A DNA stretch of 63,494 nt from Azohydromonas caseinilytica (GTDB lineage Bacteria; Pseudomonadota; Gammaproteobacteria; Burkholderiales; Burkholderiaceae_C): positions 1-63,494 of the forward strand of contig NZ_JABBFW010000031.1 of NCBI RefSeq assembly GCF_012927045.1, given 5' to 3'. The notes beneath the pieces were generated by a model that did no database searches, was not told where the DNA came from, and saw only the letters and a list, made by a program, of their open reading frames with translations. Positions 7,691 through 57,711 of this stretch are shown here, piece after piece; the stretch's first letter is position 1; each line of letters starts with the position of its first letter. A program made the position numbers and the translations under genes.

Positions 7691-8857
7691 ATGACATCGA
7701 CTTTTTCCGTATCCCTCGTTGCCCGATGCGGCCTGGCGCTGTGGCTGAGCCTGCCGCTGCTCGCCCTGGCCCACGGCGGCGAGGACCATTCCCACGACGA
7801 GCCCAAGACGGCCGCCCCCGCGGCCAAGGCCGCGCCAGCCGCCCCGGCCGGCGCCGCCAGCCTGGAGGCCTCGGCGCGCCTGCCCGACGGCAGCCTGTTC
7901 GTGCCCAAGCATGTGCAGCGGCTGCTGGCGCTGCGCACGCAGCCCGCCAGCCTGGCCGCGCTGGGCGCCAGCGCCGAGCTCAACGGCCGCGTCGTGGTCG
8001 AGCCCGGCAGTGGCGGGCGCATCCAGGCCACGCAGCCGGGCACGGTCGTGCCGGCGGGCAAGGCCTTCCCCGTGCTGGGCCAGAAGGTGCGCAAGGGCGA
8101 GGTGGTGGCCTGGCTGCGGCCCAGCGCCGGCGCGCTGGAGCGCGGCGACCGGTTGGCGCAGCAGGCCGAGGTCGGCGCCCAGGTGGCGCTGGCCGAGCGC
8201 CGCGCCGCGCGGCTGGAACAGCTCGAAGGGTCCATCCCGGCCAAGGAGATCGAGGCGGCGCGGCTGGAGCTGCAGGCGCTCAGGAAGCGCCAGGCCGTGC
8301 TCGCGGCCAGCCTGGACGCGCCCCAGGCGCTCGCCGCGCCGGTGGACGGCGTGATCAGCGCCGTCGAGGTCGTCGCCGGCCAGGTGGTGGACGCGCAGGC
8401 GCTGCTGTTCGAGGTGGTCGATCCCACGCGGCTGGCGGTGGAGGCGCCGGTCTATGACCTGACGCTGCCCGCCCGCATGGTTTCTGCCGAGGGCTCCGCC
8501 GGCGGGGCCACGCTGAAGCTGCAGCCCGCCGGCGCGGGCCGGCTGCTGCGCGAGCAGGCGCTGCCCATGCGCTTCCGGGTGCTGGACGCCACGGCGCCGC
8601 TGGCCGTGGGCCAGCCCGTGAAAGTCGTGCTGCGCACGCGCGGCGAGGCGCCGGGCGCGGCGCTGCCCGCGGCGGCGCTGGTGCGCGACGGCAATGGTCA
8701 ACCCATCGTCTGGGTGCACAGCGATCCCGAGCGCTTCGAACCGCGCCGCGTGCGCCACGAGGCGCTGGGCGCGGACAGCGTGGCGGTGCGCGAGGGCCTG
8801 AAGGCGGGCGAGCGCGTGGTGACCTCGGGCGCGGCGCTGCTGTCGCAGGTGCGCTGA
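7691..8857 (+). CDS. CzcB/CusB-type periplasmic adaptor (membrane fusion protein)
   Basis: A 388-residue adaptor linking the RND pump to the outer-membrane channel. A signal peptide ends around LALAHGGEDHSHDEP, giving a His-rich mature start. Then come a barrel-sandwich/lipoyl half (GRIQATQPGTVVPAGKAFPVLGQKVRKGEVVAWLRP), a short coiled-coil hairpin (residues about 155-210), the second lipoyl half (APVDGVISAVEVVAGQVVDAQALLFEVVD) and beta-barrel domains to the C-terminus. A GAGGACAGG stretch precedes the ATG. It is fourth in the operon and 13 bases before the pump gene. Confidence 0.9.
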   Translation: MTSTFSVSLVARCGLALWLSLPLLALAHGGEDHSHDEPKTAAPAAKAAPAAPAGAASLEASARLPDGSLFVPKHVQRLLALRTQPASLAALGASAELNGRVVVEPGSGGRIQATQPGTVVPAGKAFPVLGQKVRKGEVVAWLRPSAGALERGDRLAQQAEVGAQVALAERRAARLEQLEGSIPAKEIEAARLELQALRKRQAVLAASLDAPQALAAPVDGVISAVEVVAGQVVDAQALLFEVVDPTRLAVEAPVYDLTLPARMVSAEGSAGGATLKLQPAGAGRLLREQALPMRFRVLDATAPLAVGQPVKVVLRTRGEAPGAALPAAALVRDGNGQPIVWVHSDPERFEPRRVRHEALGADSVAVREGLKAGERVVTSGAALLSQVR

Positions 8858-13347: not shown

Positions 13348-14484
13348 TTATCTGGCGGCTGCCGAACCATTAACCCACAGCCCCAGCCCCGTGCATTCCT
13401 CCCGCCTCCGCCCCCACCTTACCGCCCCCAGTACCGCCAGCCCCGCCAGCATCCCCACCACCACCGGCGCCTCCGGCACCGGCGTGGCAAGGAACGCCCG
13501 CCCGCTGCCATCGGAAAGCGTCCCTCCGCCCAGGATCTGGCCGCGGTCGTTGAGGGCGTTGGCGAAGTCCAGCCGGTCCCAGCGCGCGTCGGAGCCGGGC
13601 GTCATCAGTCGGTTCAGCTCGAACGCCTGGCCGTCGCGGAACAGCAGGGCCGTGAACTGCCGCCGGTCCTCGTCCACCAGCGTCAGGCGGTAGCCGGTGG
13701 CCCAGTCGCGGTCGTTGAGGTCCTGCGCAAAGGTCTCGGCGCCCAGGTTGAGGTAGCCGCCATCGAGGTAGAGCGCCGTGCCGAGCAAGTCCTGGCCGGC
13801 GTCGCGCCAGAGCGTGATGGCGTGGCCGGCGTTGTTCAGCGCCGTGGCCCGGTACGAGCCGCCGTGCGCCATGTCGACCGGCTCGGGCAGCGTCCGCACC
13901 GTGCCATCGCGCAGCAGGTAGGCGCGCAGGTGCACCTCGTCGCCGGGGCGGCCGAGGCCGCCGGCAATCACGCCCGCGTCGTTGAGGGCGGCGACGGTGA
14001 AGAAGTCGGTGCCCGGAATGTCGAGGTAGCGCGCCCGCCGGCCGTCCCACACGAAGGCGCGGCCGTCGGCCTGGCCCAGCACCTGGCCCGACTCGTTGAT
14101 GTCGTAGGCCTCGCCGGTGTCGGCGCCCAGCGCGCTGGCCAGGTTGATGGAGCGGCCGTTGCGCCACAGGAAGGGCACGCGGCTGCCGTCGCCCAGGCGC
14201 CGCGTGCCGACCACGGCGCCGCGCTCGTTGAGCGCCAGCCTGCCGCCGCCCCAGGCGCCCAGGTCGTGCAGCCGGCCGCCGCGCCACAGGAAGGCCTGCT
14301 GCGAGTGGTTCTCGATGAGGGTGACGTCGCCCCGGTTGTTGAGCGAGGACACCGAGATGCTGTCCAGCCCGGTGAGGGCGTTGAGGTCCCGCACGCGGTA
14401 GCGCGGTGCTTCCTGGGCGAATGCGCCGCTTGCGGCACAGGCGGCCAGCACCGCCAGCGCCGCGCGATGAATGAATCGCGCCAT
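13348..14484 (-). CDS. HAF-repeat protein with PEP-CTERM-like sorting signal
   Basis: A 378-residue exported protein. A signal peptide (MARFIHRAALAVLAACAASGAFA) is followed by about six HAF-like beta-propeller repeats (ALNERGAVVGTR, DINESGQVLGQ, ALNDAGVIAGG, ALNNAGHAI, DLNDRDWATG, ALNDRGQILGG). The C-terminal tripartite signal is a VPEAP variant of the PEP motif, a membrane helix (VVVGMLAGLAVLGAV) and a basic cluster (RWGRRRE). Family knowledge: such proteins are cleaved and sorted by exosortase. No exosortase gene is in the window. Unusually, 16 residues follow the basic cluster. It is a close paralogue of the protein at 22895. Confidence 0.8.
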   Translation of the reverse strand: MARFIHRAALAVLAACAASGAFAQEAPRYRVRDLNALTGLDSISVSSLNNRGDVTLIENHSQQAFLWRGGRLHDLGAWGGGRLALNERGAVVGTRRLGDGSRVPFLWRNGRSINLASALGADTGEAYDINESGQVLGQADGRAFVWDGRRARYLDIPGTDFFTVAALNDAGVIAGGLGRPGDEVHLRAYLLRDGTVRTLPEPVDMAHGGSYRATALNNAGHAITLWRDAGQDLLGTALYLDGGYLNLGAETFAQDLNDRDWATGYRLTLVDEDRRQFTALLFRDGQAFELNRLMTPGSDARWDRLDFANALNDRGQILGGGTLSDGSGRAFLATPVPEAPVVVGMLAGLAVLGAVRWGRRREECTGLGLWVNGSAAAR

Positions 14485-36241: not shown

Positions 36242-36690
36242 TTCAACCTCCGGTCATTGGTAGAGTCGCGCACCGTGAAGCGTGGACGCGCCGCAAAAAG
36301 ATAGGCGCCTGGCAGGAGCCTGGTCTGATTCAGCGCAAGCGCGAGGGCGGTGCAAAACCTGTTTTGTGCCAACCGGTAAAGTGCCGTTGCGAGATTTGTT
36401 CACGGGGCGCAATCCGCGTGCTGCCTCGCTGGCACGGATGGGCATATTGGATTGCGTGCATTCCTGCCTGTCGGGCCCGGTTTCACCGGGTCAGCCAGGG
36501 GCAGGGGCTGGACTTCAGGAAGCCCAAGAGTTCCATCCGTGTCTTGGTTTTGTCGAGGCACGCCCCCACACTGCCGTTTACCCCATCCCCAGCCGTGACT
36601 TTCGTCACCTCCAGTTCGTGAAGGACGACACAGCGCCGGCATGACGTTTCGCAGCGTGGCCGGGCGCGGCGGGTGCCTAGAGTTGCCTGC
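36242..36690. other. Regulatory gap with palindrome and conserved promoter
   Basis: About 450 bases between divergent genes. It holds a 14-base palindrome CAAAACCTGTTTTG (36353-36366), a possible operator upstream of the lipoprotein, and the conserved regulatory module at 36595-36681 before the Crp-like gene. No gene seen. Confidence 0.5.
36595..36683 (+). promoter_or_regulatory. Three-part conserved promoter of the Crp/Fnr-like gene
   Basis: GTGACTTTCGTCAC (36595-36608, a GTGA-N6-TCAC CRP-type site), CGTTTCGCAG (36645-36654) and TGCCTAGA (36674-36681, with TAGAGT as -10). Gaps of 36 and 19 bases are identical to those at 41144-41230. The -10 places transcription at about the ATG (36691), suggesting a leaderless mRNA. 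Confidence 0.65.
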
Positions 36691-37317
36691 ATGAAACGCC
36701 TCCTCCTCACCCACCCGCTGCGCAACACCATCAGCCTTCAGCTGAAGTTCCACCCGCTGCTGGCGGGCCTGGACGACGCTGCCCATGCCGAGCTGGCCAG
36801 CCTGGTCACCGTGCACGAGGTGCACCGTGGCGAGCGCCTGCTGGAGCAGGGCAGCCGGGAGCTGAGCCAGTTCCTGGTGATCGAAGGGCTGCTCAAGCGC
36901 GTGGTGACCGGCGCCAACGGGCGCGAGATGACGCTGCGCTTCGCCGGCGAGCACGACATGGAAACCTGCTACGAGGCCTGGCGCGATGGCGCCGGCGCGG
37001 GCTTCTCGGTCGTCGGCGCCAGCGGCGCGCTGGTCGTCTCGCTGAGCATGAGCGACTGGTGCGACTTCCTGGACCGCCATCACGCCGTGCGGCAGGCGTT
37101 CCAGGAGCGGCTGGTGCAGATCGGCACGGCCATCGTGGAGCATGCGGTCGGGCTGCTGCTGCTCGACGCGCCGAGCCGCGTGCACCAGTTCTCCTCCAAG
37201 CACCGCGAGCTGGTCGACCGCCTGCCGCACAAGGACCTGGCCTCGTACCTGAACCTGTCGGCAGAAACCTTCTGCCGCGTGACGCGGCGCCAACGGCCGG
37301 CTCTGCAGGCTGCCTGA
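36691..37317 (+). CDS. Crp/Fnr-family transcription regulator
   Basis: A 208-residue regulator: cyclic-nucleotide-binding-like beta-roll (about 20-120: RGERLLEQGSRELSQFLVIEGLLKRVVTG), dimer helix (about 130-150) and an HTH (HKDLASYLNLSAETFCRVTRRQ) whose E-T-x-x-R arrangement matches the Crp/Fnr recognition helix. No N-terminal Cys cluster, so it is not an oxygen-sensing [4Fe-4S] FNR. It ends soon after the recognition helix, leaving no room for the full wing. No SD; the leaderless start is supported by the -10 at 36678. It may bind the CRP-type sites upstream of itself and at 41144, which is untested. Confidence 0.85.
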   Translation: MKRLLLTHPLRNTISLQLKFHPLLAGLDDAAHAELASLVTVHEVHRGERLLEQGSRELSQFLVIEGLLKRVVTGANGREMTLRFAGEHDMETCYEAWRDGAGAGFSVVGASGALVVSLSMSDWCDFLDRHHAVRQAFQERLVQIGTAIVEHAVGLLLLDAPSRVHQFSSKHRELVDRLPHKDLASYLNLSAETFCRVTRRQRPALQAA

Positions 37318-37399
37318 GGCGCGGCGCGTGATGGCCATGTCCCCAGCCTTGTCACAGCCCGACCCGGGAGGGCCGGAGCCGGGCCGTATATTGAGCTGC

Positions 37400-38095
37400 A
37401 TGAACGCGGAACGAGCCCCTGCCCAGCGCATCCGGTTGCTGATCGTCGATGACCAGGCCCTGGTGCGGCGCGGCCTGGCGCTGATGCTGTCGATGGAGCC
37501 CGACATGGAGGTCGTGGGCGAGGCCAGCGACGGCCTGGAGGCGGTGGAACAGGCCAAGCGGCTGAGGCCCGACGTCGTGCTGATGGACCTGCACATGCCG
37601 CGCAAGGGCGGCGTGGGCGCCACGCGCGAGATCACCGCCTCGCTGCCCCAGACGCGCGTGCTGGTGCTCACGACCATGGAGGCCGAGCAGTCGGTGTTCG
37701 ACGCGGTACGCGCCGGCGCGATGGCCTACCTGCTCAAGGACGCCACCGAGCAGGAGGTGGTCGAGACGGTGCGCGGCGTGCACCGCGGCGAGTCGCACAT
37801 GACGCCGCAAATCGCGCGGAAGATGCTCGACCAGTTCCGCCGCATGGCCGAGGCGGCACCGCCGCCGGAGTACCGGCACGAGGAGCCGCAGGAGGAGGCG
37901 GCGCCGCTGTCCGAGAAGGAAAGCAAGGTGCTGCAGCTCATCGCCGAGGGCAAGAGCAACAAGCAGATCGGCACCATGCTGTTCCTGGCCGAGGGCACGG
38001 TGAAGAACTACGTGAGCCGCATCATGGAGAAACTGCACGCCGGCAGCCGCACCGAGCTGGCCGTGATCGCGCTGCGGCAGCGGCGCGTCGAATAG
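37400..38095 (+). CDS. NarL/FixJ-family response regulator
   Basis: A 231-residue regulator: receiver domain with acidic pocket (IVDDQ), phosphoacceptor D63 (VLMDLHMPRKGG), Thr (VLTT) and Lys (LLKD). A charged linker (AEAAPPPEYRHEEPQEE) leads to a LuxR-type HTH (LSEKESKVLQLIAEGKSNKQIGTMLFLAEGTVKNYVSRIMEKL). It is convergent with the MFS gene (2-base gap). Its likely partner is the NarX-like kinase at 39488-41014, on the other side of the MFS gene. The start has a weak SD. Confidence 0.88.
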   Translation: MNAERAPAQRIRLLIVDDQALVRRGLALMLSMEPDMEVVGEASDGLEAVEQAKRLRPDVVLMDLHMPRKGGVGATREITASLPQTRVLVLTTMEAEQSVFDAVRAGAMAYLLKDATEQEVVETVRGVHRGESHMTPQIARKMLDQFRRMAEAAPPPEYRHEEPQEEAAPLSEKESKVLQLIAEGKSNKQIGTMLFLAEGTVKNYVSRIMEKLHAGSRTELAVIALRQRRVE

Positions 38096-38096
38096 C

Positions 38097-39491
38097 TCAG
38101 GGCACCGCTTCGAGCAGCCGTTGCCGCATCGGCCGCAGCACGAACCACGCCAGCAGCGCCCCCACCCCGTTCATCGCGCAGGCGATCAGGAACACGGCGT
38201 GCCAATCGCGCGTCATCAGCACCAGCGTGCTCGACAGCGGCACCGCGAGCGAGGCCACGCCCTTGGCGGTGTAGAGCAGGCCGGCGTTCGCCGCCGCGTA
38301 CTTCGAGCCGAAGGTGTCCGCGCAGGTCGAAGGGAACAGGCTGTAGATCTCGCCCCAGGCCAGGAACAGCGCGCCGGTAAGCAGCACGAAGCCCAGCGGG
38401 TGGCCGCCGAACTCGTACAGCGCCAGGATGGCGACCGCCTCCAGGCTGAAGGCCAGCACCATGGTCTGCTCGCGCCCGATGCGGTCGGACACCCAGCCGA
38501 AGAACAGGCGCGACAGGCCGTTGAGCACGCGGTCCAGCGCCAGCGCGAAGGTCAATGCCGGCAGCACCAGCCCGGCGATGTTCACCGGGAGGTCGTCGAT
38601 TTTGAAGTCGCGGGCGATGAGCGCGAGCTGCGCCGTGGCCATCAGGCCGCCGGCCGCCGTCAGCACGAAGATCGCGTACATCACCCAGAACACCGGCTGG
38701 CGCAGGGTTTCGCCGGGCGTGTAGTCGCGCTGCGACTGGCGCAGGTGTAGCGGCGGCGGCGGGGTTTCAACCTGCCTGAGCAGCTTGTTTGGGTCCTCCA
38801 GGCCCAGCGCCATCAGCATCACGAGCAGGCCCTGGCCGAGGCCGAAGTACAGGAAGGCGGCCTCGTGGCCGCGCGAGGCGATCACCATCGAGATTGGCAC
38901 GACGGTGAGCGCCGAGCCGGCGCCGAAGCTCGCCACCACCAGGCCCACCGCGAGACCGCGCCGCTCGGGAAACCACTTCAGGGCGCTGCCCACGCAGGTG
39001 CCGTAGACCGCGCCCGCGCCGATGCCGGTGATTGCGGAGGCCGCGTACAGCAGCGCCAAGGAGTCCACGAAGGCGTTCATCACCCAGCCGATCGCGCACA
39101 GCAGGCCCGCGCCGAGCACCACCGGGCGCGGGCCGAAGCGGTCGACAAGGTAGCCCGCCAGCGGCACGAACCAGGTCTGGGTGAGCACGAAGATGGCGAA
39201 GGCGACCTGGATCGCCGCGTGGCTCCAGCCGAAGCGCTCGGCGAACGGGTTGACGAACAGCGTCCAGCCGTACTGCAGGTTGGCGATGGTGGCCATGCAC
39301 ACCATCGCCATCGCCAGCTGCCCCCAGCGGAAGCGCGGGTCCGGCGGCGCGTCGTCGCTGAGGTCGTCCAGCCAGGGGGCGGCAGCCCGCCGCGGGGTGA
39401 TGTCGTCGTCCACGGTGTTGGCCGGCCCGCCGCGGGCCGCAGCGCAACATTCGACAAGGGATGGCATGCGGGTGCTTCCTTCCACGCTCAT
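38097..39491 (-). CDS. MFS transporter, OFA (oxalate/formate antiporter) type
   Basis: A 464-residue inner-membrane carrier with 12 hydrophobic segments. OFA-family signature regions: NLQYGWTLFVNPFAERFGWSHAAIQVAFAIFVL at helix 1, GYLVDRFGPRPVVLGAG in loop 2-3, GIGAGAVYGTCVGSALKWFPERRGLAVGLVVASFG, and GWVSDRIGREQTM in loop 8-9. Family members exchange small monocarboxylates or dicarboxylates; the substrate here is unknown. ATG overlaps the stop of the kinase gene (ATGA), so sensing and transport are coupled at translation. The first 45 residues are a cytoplasmic extension. Confidence 0.88.
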   Translation of the reverse strand: MSVEGSTRMPSLVECCAAARGGPANTVDDDITPRRAAAPWLDDLSDDAPPDPRFRWGQLAMAMVCMATIANLQYGWTLFVNPFAERFGWSHAAIQVAFAIFVLTQTWFVPLAGYLVDRFGPRPVVLGAGLLCAIGWVMNAFVDSLALLYAASAITGIGAGAVYGTCVGSALKWFPERRGLAVGLVVASFGAGSALTVVPISMVIASRGHEAAFLYFGLGQGLLVMLMALGLEDPNKLLRQVETPPPPLHLRQSQRDYTPGETLRQPVFWVMYAIFVLTAAGGLMATAQLALIARDFKIDDLPVNIAGLVLPALTFALALDRVLNGLSRLFFGWVSDRIGREQTMVLAFSLEAVAILALYEFGGHPLGFVLLTGALFLAWGEIYSLFPSTCADTFGSKYAAANAGLLYTAKGVASLAVPLSSTLVLMTRDWHAVFLIACAMNGVGALLAWFVLRPMRQRLLEAVP

Positions 39492-41014
39492 GGCGTGTGG
39501 GCGGCGTGGCCCAGGCGGTCGTTCGATGGGCTCATCTCGGGGCCGACGCGCAGCCGCAGGCGCACGGCGGTGCCGGCCCCCGGTGCGCTGCGCAACTCCA
39601 GCTCGGCGTCGATCAGCTGCGCCTGCTCGCTGATGCCGACCAGGCCGTAGTGCCCGGGATGCGGTTCGGCGAGGTCGAAACCGACCCCGTCGTCGGCAAT
39701 GGCCAGCTCGATGGTGCCGTTGTCCAGGTCCTTCAAGGCGACCTGGACATGCGAGGCCTGCGCGTGCCGGTCGATGTTGCGCAGCACCTCCTCGGCGATG
39801 CGGAACAGCGTTTCCGCACGCGGGTCGGCGAAGGTGGCTGCCTGTGGGTCGGTGCTGAAGCGCACATCCAGCCCCGTGCGCTCGGCAAACCGGTTCACCG
39901 CGCCGCCCAGCGCGGCGCCCAGGCCGAGGTCGCGCACGGCGTTGAGCCGCATCTGGCTCACCGCCTCGCGCGCCTCCTTGATGCCCTGGCGCGCCACTTC
40001 CTCGGCACGTTCGAGCTCGGCGCCCAGCTTCTGCGGGTCGTGCGCATGCAGCATGCGCAGCGTGCGCACCTCGACCAGCATCTCCATCATCGAGTGGGCC
40101 AGGGTGTCGTGCAGGTCGCGGGCCAGCCGCAGCCGCTCGCGCACCACCGCCGCATAGCGGCTGTCGGCCGCCAGGCGCTCGACCTCGCGCGTGCGCGCCT
40201 GCACGCGCTGCTCCAGCTCCTGCGTCAGCCGGTCGAGCTCGTCGTGCTCCTGGCGTTGCGCCTGCAGCAGCCGGCTGAAGGCGCGCCCCAGCACCGCCAC
40301 CTCGTCGCGGCCCTTGGGCTCGACGATGCCGTCGGCCTCCTGCCGGGCGACGCGCCGCACCTGGGCCGTCAGCTCGCCCAGCCGCCGCGTGAGGCGGCGC
40401 GCGAACATCGCGCCCACGAGGGCGGCCGTGATGCTGAGCAGGATCGAGATGGCGGTCAGCTTCTCCTGCAGGCTGCCGCCGCCGCCATGGCCGCGCTCCT
40501 CGGCCGGCTGCACCACCGCCACGTGCATGCCCAGGGCGCTCAGCGCGGGCGCGGCATCGCGGGGCGCGCTCACGACGAGGGTGCGCTGGCCGTCGTCGGC
40601 CGGCAGCACCGCCACGCCGGGCAGCACCGGCGCGAGCGGCGGCAGCGGCGAACCGGACGGGCGCTCGAACACGATGCCGTGACGCTCGTTCAGCAGCAGG
40701 ACGCGGGCAAGCGGGTCGGGCTTCACGCGCTCGCGCACGTCATCGATGAGGGCGGCCAGCCGCTCCTGGGACGGCAGGTGCGGCGCGGACCCGCTCTCGC
40801 CAGGCTGGTTCACGAGGGCCCGCTCCAGCTCGGCGGCCACCTGGCTGGCGAAGCGCTTCAACAGCGCATCGCGCTGCGCCAGCATGCTGTTGGCGGCATA
40901 GTCGCCCACCGCCACCAGGGCGAGCGCGATCGTGAGCGAGAGGGCGACGGCAAGCCAGGCGACTGCCGTCGCGAGGCTGCGTCTGGGATCAAGGGCACTG
41001 AAACTGCGGAACAT
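39488..41014 (-). CDS. NarX/NreB-type sensor histidine kinase (HisKA_3)
   Basis: A 508-residue membrane kinase: helix 1 (about 13-38), periplasmic domain about 40-190, helix 2 (LTAISILLSITAALVGAMFA), HAMP (RRLTRRLGELTAQVRRV), coiled coil (residues about 250-290), HisKA_3 H302 (RLARDLHDTLAHSM) and HATPase (TLFRIAEEVLRNIDRHA; DDGVGFD; GLVGISEQAQLI). Its partner is the NarL-like regulator at 37400. The periplasmic part has no recognised nitrate P-box, so the signal is not nitrate by sequence alone. ATG at 41014 was chosen because the 60-base upstream extension begins with TTG and lacks an SD. Confidence 0.88.
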   Translation of the reverse strand: MFRSFSALDPRRSLATAVAWLAVALSLTIALALVAVGDYAANSMLAQRDALLKRFASQVAAELERALVNQPGESGSAPHLPSQERLAALIDDVRERVKPDPLARVLLLNERHGIVFERPSGSPLPPLAPVLPGVAVLPADDGQRTLVVSAPRDAAPALSALGMHVAVVQPAEERGHGGGGSLQEKLTAISILLSITAALVGAMFARRLTRRLGELTAQVRRVARQEADGIVEPKGRDEVAVLGRAFSRLLQAQRQEHDELDRLTQELEQRVQARTREVERLAADSRYAAVVRERLRLARDLHDTLAHSMMEMLVEVRTLRMLHAHDPQKLGAELERAEEVARQGIKEAREAVSQMRLNAVRDLGLGAALGGAVNRFAERTGLDVRFSTDPQAATFADPRAETLFRIAEEVLRNIDRHAQASHVQVALKDLDNGTIELAIADDGVGFDLAEPHPGHYGLVGISEQAQLIDAELELRSAPGAGTAVRLRLRVGPEMSPSNDRLGHAAHTP

Positions 41015-41143
41015 CTTTGGGCGCCGATGTTCGCCACTCCAGGCCCCTTGTCCATTGGTGTATCGACTGAACAACCTTCAGCCGGCAGCCGTGTAGGCAC
41101 CACGGCGCCGCGCAGGCGGATCAGGGCGACCGGGCGCAAGAAG

Positions 41144-41230
41144 ATGACGAAGGTCACTGTGTTGTCGTGCCTTGCGTCACTGCCTCGCGGTGCCGTTTCG
41201 CAGGGGACAACGGGCGGTGCTCTGCCTAGA
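41144..41230 (+). promoter_or_regulatory. Three-part conserved promoter of the 90-residue gene
   Basis: ATGACGAAGGTCAC (41144-41157), CGTTTCGCAG (41194-41203) and TGCCTAGA (41223-41230), with 36- and 19-base gaps identical to those at 36595. The -10 is TAGATT (41227-41232). Confidence 0.65.
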
Positions 41231-41259
41231 TTTCCCTCATGCGTCGTACAGGAGTGCCC

Positions 41260-41532
41260 ATGGACACGGCCACCGCTTCAGCCTTGTTGTCGCGCGACGA
41301 CATGTTCGTCGACCTGGTCAGCTTCAAGTGGCTGATGGCCGACATGGGCTGCTGGATCGACCTGCCCCGCATGCGGTACGACACCGCCTATGCCTGCGAA
41401 TGCGCGTCCCGGGGCCTGTCGGCGCGCTGTTCCGTGCTGCAGCAACGCAGCCGGGAGCTGCTGTCCCTGCTGGCGGCGCCGGTGGCGATGGAGCCCACGC
41501 TCAACGATCTCGGCGCGCGCATGCAGCGATGA
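41260..41532 (+). CDS. Small protein of unknown function, co-regulated with the Crp/NarX cluster
   Basis: A 90-residue, soluble-looking protein: MDTATASALLSRDDMFVDLVSFKWLMADMGCWIDLP at the start, a CECASRGLSARC pair of Cys motifs, and a helical tail (LQQRSRELLSLLAAPVAMEPTLNDLG). I do not recognise the family. AGGAG precedes the ATG at 41260; an in-frame ATG at 41239 lies 8 bases after TGCCTAGA and could be a leaderless start. The matching promoter module implies joint regulation with the Crp/Fnr-like gene. Confidence 0.6.
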   Translation: MDTATASALLSRDDMFVDLVSFKWLMADMGCWIDLPRMRYDTAYACECASRGLSARCSVLQQRSRELLSLLAAPVAMEPTLNDLGARMQR

Positions 41533-57195: not shown

Positions 57196-57711
57196 GACGA
57201 AACGCCCGGGGGCGGCTCGACCATGACTATCGACGGACAGCGCAATTCTTAATGATGCAAATGCGCCGGGATTCCGGCCAAATTGATTTCCGACAGGAAA
57301 TTCTCGGCGTTCCACGTCATCGGCCGGATGGTGCCGCCGTCGAGCCCGGCGCCGGAGAAATCAATGAATGCCGTCGAATATTTCACGGCATTTGTTCACG
57401 AAATTCTCTCTTGCGCGATATCGTTGACGTGCGTCAAAGACTTTTGATTGCCGGCCTATATTCGGCCCCGCGTCGGGCCATTTGATGGAATTTGTTGAAC
57501 CGGCAGCCATTTGGCTGCCCGGCATACAATTCCCGGCCACATCCAAAAGATAGGGCCCTGGGTGCATATATTGATGGTGTGCGCCGCCCGGGCCGGCTTG
57601 CCGCTTCACGGCACGGCGCCCGCGGTTTTGCGGGGCAGGCGCCGCAAGCCCGCCGGGCGGCCGGCCTCCGGCGAGGTGCGAATCAAACGGGAACGCGCGC
57701 GCCGGCCGGCT
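57196..57711. other. AT-richer gap between phaC and glgC
   Basis: A 516-base region between phaC (minus start) and glgC (minus stop) with no convincing gene. It contains the FNR box at 57424, a TATATT at 57457, and a hairpin GGCAGCCA/TGGCTGCC at 57502-57519. It may hold the phaC promoter, the glgC 3' end and possibly a plus-strand sRNA. Confidence 0.5.
57424..57437. promoter_or_regulatory. FNR/CRP-type box (TTGAC-N4-GTCAA)
   Basis: TTGACGTGCGTCAA is a perfect 14-base dyad of TTGA-N6-TCAA type. On the plus strand TATATT follows after 19 bases, near class II spacing; no known gene follows there. On the minus strand it is about 230 bases before phaC, with GAGAAT 15 bases on. Direction is undecided. 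Confidence 0.5.

Follow-up and report, generated by a model that had tools for sequence, protein, structure and literature searches.

Two promoters of Azohydromonas caseinilytica share a phased array of three candidate Crp/Fnr-type sites upstream of a regulator gene and a small-protein gene

In the class II promoters of Escherichia coli FNR and CRP, a 14-bp dyad of the TGA-N-TCA type replaces the -35 element and is centred near -41.5. We describe here two promoters in a 63,494-nt stretch of Azohydromonas caseinilytica DNA (contig NZ_JABBFW010000031.1; this whole stretch is called the window), one upstream of crp1, which encodes a Crp/Fnr-type regulator, and the other upstream of a gene for a 90-residue protein. 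They share with the E. coli promoters a dyad in the position of the -35 element near -41.5, but differ in carrying three sites in a 23-bp register, two of them degenerate, and in a target that is probably leaderless and autoregulated. For the regulon of another CRP/FNR regulator, HcpR, the available excerpt of PMC545781 gives a second motif, atTTGAccnnggTCAAat, with half-sites nearly identical to those of TTGAC-N4-GTCAA, the operator found beside the relatives of Crp2, a paralogue of Crp1 (see below); the HcpR motif differs, however, in belonging to other genes (hcp, frdX) of another phylum, with no oxalate link in that excerpt, and the window sites have a purine and a pyrimidine (R/Y) as outer bases. 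CprK, the regulator of halorespiration, is a Crp-Fnr protein that responds to a ligand of its pathway (PMC2610375, in excerpt), and its likeness to Crp1, drawn from its description, is one of protein class. Class II Crp/Fnr activation itself is already well known; a description of the Crp1 regulator, or of any Crp/Fnr regulator of oxalate genes, was not found in the open PMC literature among the matches listed. Term searches in four oxalate papers (PMC12927642, PMC9476978, PMC10192776 and PMC4764995) returned 0 occurrences of 'Crp' in each; regulators of the TetR and LysR types are mentioned in PMC4764995.

An initial annotation of this DNA had reported three motifs with identical gaps of 36 and 19 nt at both promoters, and direct reading of the sequence confirms them. 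Upstream of crp1, GTGACTTTCGTCAC (36595-36608) is followed after 36 nt by CGTTTCGCAG (36645-36654, box 2) and after a further 19 nt by TGCCTAGA (36674-36681), with the ATG at 36691. At the other promoter, ATGACGAAGGTCAC (41144-41157), CGTTTCGCAG (41194-41203) and TGCCTAGA (41223-41230) stand at the same 36- and 19-nt distances, followed by an ATG at 41239; the start of the 90-residue frame at 41260 is the second ATG behind this promoter and the one with a Shine-Dalgarno sequence. The core of the dyad at 41144 is inverted, its reverse complement being TGACCTTCGTCA. The composite promoters span 36595-36683 and 41144-41232, and over these full 89 nt they are identical at 48 positions. Outside the boxes the identity is 12/39, against 11.4 expected from base composition; the spacing has therefore been kept and the filler has not, as the annotation had also stated. 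It had proposed a genome-wide scan as well, and across the whole 6.65-Mb genome the exact pattern RTGACNNNNGTCAC-N36-CGTTTCGCAG occurs at 2 places, both of them the window promoters (0 with the backwards pattern as control). Box 2 plus N19 plus TGCCTAGA with up to 3 mismatches likewise finds just these two (control, 1+1), and RTGACNTTCGTCAY occurs nowhere else in this genome.

Inside the 36-nt gap we found a further box that had gone unseen, TGAAGGACGACA at 36619 and TGCCTTGCGTCA at 41168, 23 bp from each of its neighbours. We aligned six promoters on the first dyad (site A), namely the two of the window, those of three crp1 orthologues and that of a homologue of the 90-residue gene (L104), and summed the matches to TGAC-N4-GTCA at each offset from site A. 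The score peaks at +46 (34/48) and +23 (32/48), the next best value of 26 falling inside the -10 region, and none of 20000 shuffles reaches 32 at any of 72 offsets; both peaks had first appeared with five promoters. The promoter of a damaged crp1 copy in a further genome, G114, was left out of the six; in that draft genome crp1 (L057, C529) is scrambled with a piece of a response-regulator gene, either by damage or by misassembly. The peaks at +23 and +46 thus point to three 14-bp sites in a 23-bp register, and all six promoters share one layout, in which TG(A/C)C-N4-GTCA-like sites start at 0, +23 and +46 and are followed by 23 nt and a -10 hexamer, TA(G/C)A(G/T)T, which begins 69 nt after site A in every case. 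Site C opens with RTG(A/C) in 6/6 promoters, and CGTTTCGCAG is better read as the right-hand portion of this third 14-bp site, RTG[A/C]CGTTTCGCAG, which is of one kind with the others.

All these elements lie on the forward strand. In the crp1 promoter site A is GTGACTTTCGTCAC, a perfect TGAC-N4-GTCA dyad kept in A. aeria, A. australica and Methylibium rhizosphaerae; site B, 23 bp from it, is GTGAAGGACGACAC (36618-36631, 6/8 consensus positions); and site C, in the class II position and including the previously described CGTTTCGCAG, is ATGACGTTTCGCAG (36641-36654, 6/8). The hexamer TAGAGT (36678-36683) stands 23 nt past site C and 7 nt before the ATG. In the promoter of the 90-residue gene, site A, with its inverted core, is followed by site B, GTGCCTTGCGTCAC (41167-41180, 7/8), and site C, GTGCCGTTTCGCAG (41190-41203, 5/8), and TAGATT (41227-41232) again begins 23 nt past site C. 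A dyad, degenerate in sequence, thus lies in place of the -35 element 23 nt before the -10 hexamer in 6/6 promoters, where class II sites have 22-23 nt. At 17-nt spacing the -35 hexamer matches at 0 of 6 positions in the own crp1 promoter (3/6 at 16 nt), 1 in A. aeria, 2 in A. australica, 0 in M. rhizosphaerae, 3 in L104 and 4 in the own 90-residue-gene promoter, so that a recognizable -35 is mostly missing, with the last as the exception. We consider it likely that both are class II Crp/Fnr-dependent promoters with a phased triple operator, and that Crp1 binds the array and activates crp1 and the 90-residue gene.

The array is conserved upstream of crp1. A search of 399 genomes of the family for the 86-nt pattern of three boxes, allowing up to 3 mismatches, gave 4 places in 3 genomes: the two window promoters, and one place directly upstream of each of the crp1 orthologues of A. 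aeria (G002) and M. rhizosphaerae (G076). The A. australica orthologue has the same promoter with more mismatches, which brings the array to three relatives, one of them from another genus; no crp1 was found in the fourth genome of the genus (G003). The 90-residue gene beside the sensor histidine kinase (HK) is not present in A. aeria or A. australica. Its nearest homologue outside the genome, L104 in G114, from a further genus, is 56% identical and has the same promoter. Conservation of the motifs at orthologous genes, on which the annotation had made its proposal depend, therefore holds for crp1 and for this nearest homologue and fails at 14 more distant ones. The M. rhizosphaerae cluster holds nine exact dyads in 16.6 kb, against a shuffle mean of 0.2. 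Three have T/A as outer bases, one in the interval from oxc to crp2 and one each upstream of a TctC gene and of the crp1 promoter. Four are of the R/Y type, namely that of crp1, two between HK and the response regulator (RR) and one within the 3' end of the HK frame, at 46 bp upstream of the antiporter frame. The remaining two are mixed (A/A at 7797, C/A at 13744).

The crp1 gene (36691-37317, forward strand) encodes 208 residues and stops soon after the recognition helix (ETFCR), a length that predicts no wing. Its best profile match is PDB 3dn7 (7.4e-16, profile positions 25-200), a cyclic nucleotide binding regulatory protein of 194 residues that we liken to Crp1 by name and by its similarly short length, and a profile of six relatives gave 8.4e-9 and 1.7e-8 as best matches against CRP structures, ending at CRP residue 189-190 of 209-210. 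The cNMP-binding-type N-terminal domain PF00027 scores 21.4 bits in Crp1 and 26.3 in the A. australica orthologue, both below the cut-off of 27.5, and exceeds it in M. rhizosphaerae Crp2 (30.6) and in a 38% homologue, L014 (29.2), whose neighbourhood is unrelated and which has no exact site in its 15.4 kb. HTH_Crp_2 reaches 18.7 bits (cut-off 27) and covers positions 16-44 of its 70 only; the C-terminus apparently comprises the recognition helix and lacks the wing. Crp1-type proteins are rare: 61 of the 399 family genomes have a match at E<=1e-25, and only four of these have one that is at least 59% identical, besides the damaged copy in G114. FNR, an Fe-S oxygen sensor, has an N-terminal cysteine cluster. 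We found no such cluster in four orthologues: the first cysteine is residue 93 in the window protein and in A. aeria, while A. australica and M. rhizosphaerae each have a lone cysteine ahead of residue 90 (at 16 and 49, respectively). Crp1 is therefore unlikely to be a sensor of this kind. The gene context, with an antiporter of family TIGR04259, leads us to guess at a metabolite of the oxalate pathway as its signal.

The same genome encodes Crp2, 43% identical to Crp1. Its gene lies ~2 kb from that of an oxalyl-CoA decarboxylase (oxc; 83.6% identity with a protein scoring above the TIGR03254 cut-off). It also adjoins genes whose products all exceed the cut-offs of their families, namely two formyl-CoA transferases (TIGR03253), another oxalate/formate antiporter (TIGR04259) and the alpha subunit of a formate dehydrogenase (TIGR01591). 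In the order-wide set, 75/399 genomes gave a match, and we took the best matches as 57 Crp2-type loci (3 of the genus itself, 26 of the family and 28 of the order). In 42 of them the fetched flank includes a true oxc (73-89% identity), and in a further 7 it has a thiamine-pyrophosphate enzyme of just 23-26% identity; the remaining 8 have no oxc there, 3 of these being the genus's own, with oxc ~2 kb or more away. TGAC-N4-GTCA occurs within 300 bp upstream at 39/57 loci, with T/A as outer bases in all 39. Across all loci examined, 58 of 60 distinct TTGAC-N4-GTCAA sites have an xAxxxT hexamer at a gap of 22-23 nt on one strand or both, against 1-17 of 60 at each of 24 control gap pairs. The family thus seems to act from the class II position, the one in which site C lies. 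Every Crp2-type protein ends 10-21 residues from the start of the helix motif (57/57), and together they apparently form a wingless Crp/Fnr lineage, beside oxc in 42/57 cases. The motif itself is ETLSR in 56 and ETMSR in 1 of the Crp2-type proteins, and ET(F/L)CR in 5/5 Crp1-type ones; in step with this change the outer base goes from T to A/G, being T/A in Crp2-type sites and R/Y in 6/6 copies of site A. The corresponding helix position in E. coli FNR is Ser212, which discriminates TTGAT from GTGA-type sites.

Upstream of site A, sites of the TTGAC-N4-GTCAA type also stand at exactly 55 bp in two crp1 promoters, those of M. rhizosphaerae (L013, 7851) and G114 (L057), and at 36 bp in the G114 promoter of the 90-residue homologue (L104, G114:C37). 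A Crp2-to-Crp1 cascade is possible at these places.

For the two promoters themselves we propose that dimers of Crp1 would occupy the strong upstream site A and then the weaker B and C, 23 bp apart, and that the dimer on C, centred at about -42 and overlapping the -35 region, would recruit RNA polymerase to TAGAGT. Crp1 would thereby activate its own gene, from a leaderless transcript, and the 90-residue gene. That A is perfect and B and C imperfect suggests that C may be filled only through side-by-side cooperativity, which would make a thresholded positive feedback loop. Crp1 would have kept the TGAC-N4-GTCA half-sites of Crp2 while reading a purine instead of T before TGAC.

The array could instead be bound by the NarL/LuxR-type RR of the cluster (37400-38095, forward strand), a family that can use GAC-N4-GTC dyads, as DosR- and LiaR-like regulators do. 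HK and RR travel with crp1, G003 being without crp1 and without HK, and the stretch between HK and RR in M. rhizosphaerae holds two dyads at a distance of 23 bp. Yet the same dyad stands at 39 of the 57 Crp2-type loci, none of the 57 having HK or RR in the fetched flank (up to ~1.5 kb), 58/60 of the Crp2-type operator sites share the distance to the -10 hexamer, and the outer base covaries with the recognition helix of the Crp protein. We thus regard binding by the RR as improbable, and the NarL-like regulator that had been suggested as the second binder loses its support with it. The composite promoter of the initial annotation, with a Crp/Fnr protein on A and an unrelated activator on CGTTTCGCAG, holds up in part: its Crp/Fnr-type sites stand and autoregulation is probable, but two different DNA-binding proteins are unlikely. 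In favour of a second protein, site C departs strongly from a perfect dyad and keeps its TT and CAG in 6/6 promoters; against it, C shares exactly the 23-bp register of A and B, starts with RTG(A/C) in every promoter and has the same distance to the -10 hexamer as the perfect dyads of the paralogous type.

Crp2, alone or together with Crp1, might also control the two promoters, as it is present in the same genome and the T/A sites upstream of A (55, 55 and 36 bp away in M. rhizosphaerae crp1, G114 crp1 and the G114 90-residue homologue) would suit it. The T/A outer bases of 39/39 Crp2-type upstream sites, against R/Y in 6/6 copies of site A, and the lack of any T/A-type dyad in either window promoter make this quite unlikely. 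Least probable, and very improbable indeed, is that the shared layout is the relic of a promoter duplication, or that box 2 is the -35 element of an alternative sigma factor. Both promoters do lie within 5 kb, but the filler between the boxes is at background (12/39) while the layout recurs across genera, and TTTCGC of box 2 ends 25 nt before the -10 hexamer. An alternative-sigma promoter was rejected because box 2 and the -10 occur together at no other place in the genome with up to 3 mismatches.

Several observations count against control of both promoters by Crp1 through a class II triple operator. Sites B and C are degenerate, with 4-7 and 5-6 of 8 consensus positions across the six promoters, and the promoter of the 90-residue gene retains its 4/6 -35 match. 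Because the crp1 orthologues share descent, the six promoters do not count as six independent cases, and many of the 60 TTGAC-N4-GTCAA sites are likewise related. A perfect dyad is found at 0/14 other homologues of the 90-residue gene (L004-L006 and L105-L115; best sites within ~260 bp upstream), the best reaching 7/8 (L114). In G114 the damaged crp1 has a promoter with A and CCTAGAGT but without C, and its gap measures 45 nt instead of 69. Of the seven RTGACNTTCGTCAY places in the genus, three are without the array, two of them in A. australica and one in G003, which has no crp1; at +23 or +46 they score at most 4/8 on either strand, and these three were thereby rejected as further array promoters. 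In M. rhizosphaerae the nearest -10-like hexamer is 40 nt from the R/Y site of the antiporter and 21 nt from that of RR, so that these sites do not repeat the class II distance. In the window, site A at 41144 is 70 bp from the HK frame and has no -10 at class II distance on the HK-facing strand, and no further dyad with up to 1 mismatch was found at RR, antiporter or HK; across the cluster such dyads are the promoter sites themselves and one inside crp1.

If our reading is right, the natural triple-site array would offer a model for cooperative Crp/Fnr activation. As a regulon hypothesis, it would also put forward a family of candidate regulators for the breakdown of oxalate by bacteria, its operator and specificity residue being predicted. 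A broader scenario can be put forward only tentatively: a short, apparently wingless lineage, spread through the order and mostly encoded beside oxalyl-CoA decarboxylase, may have been duplicated, and Crp1 may have exchanged Ser for Cys along with the outer base of its operator; three contiguous dimers on sites phased by 23 bp would then drive crp1 and the small-protein gene, as a cooperative, autoactivating switch tied to oxalate use. Two paralogues with matched changes in protein and DNA would make it simple to test how the specificity of Crp/Fnr proteins diverges once a gene has been duplicated.

The distance from the -10 hexamer to the ATG of crp1 is 7, 8, 7 and 7 nt in four species, the start being predicted from sequence. 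Such a leader has no room for a Shine-Dalgarno sequence, and the crp1 mRNA is therefore probably leaderless. The annotation had expected this of both genes; the one at 41260 is probably not leaderless, because it has AGGAG at 41250-41254 and because its homologue L104 has an 85-nt gap to the ATG. The RR gene also has a leaderless-looking start, with TATATT, 7 nt and ATG at 37387-37400.

The remaining genes of the cluster are those for an oxalate/formate-type MFS antiporter (38097-39491, reverse strand; TIGR04259, 571 bits, cut-off 335), a HisKA_3/HAMP sensor HK (39488-41074, reverse strand) and the 90-residue protein (41260-41532, forward strand), which has no Pfam or NCBIfam match. The last belongs to a small family of the VDFKWLMA type without a Pfam match, present in 27 of the 399 family genomes, and its homologues L004-L006 adjoin CAAAGCGCTTTG-type palindromes. 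By eye, TGC(C/G)GTTT(A/T)CCC is seen 24 bp upstream of site A (36572 in the window) in 4/5 crp1 promoters, and not in that of A. australica or in the two promoters of the 90-residue gene and its homologue. Elsewhere in the window, TTGACGTGCGTCAA at 57425 lies upstream of a PHA (polyhydroxyalkanoate) synthase-like gene, in a region flanked by two minus-strand genes; TATATT follows after 19 nt, which is not the class II distance. Finally, in two species a formate-dehydrogenase-alpha-like gene has an R/Y dyad at its 3' end or close to it, L098 (G001:C2:316205) and L100 (G003:C49:38873, the genome without crp1), of which L098 alone has the formate-dehydrogenase-alpha family match.

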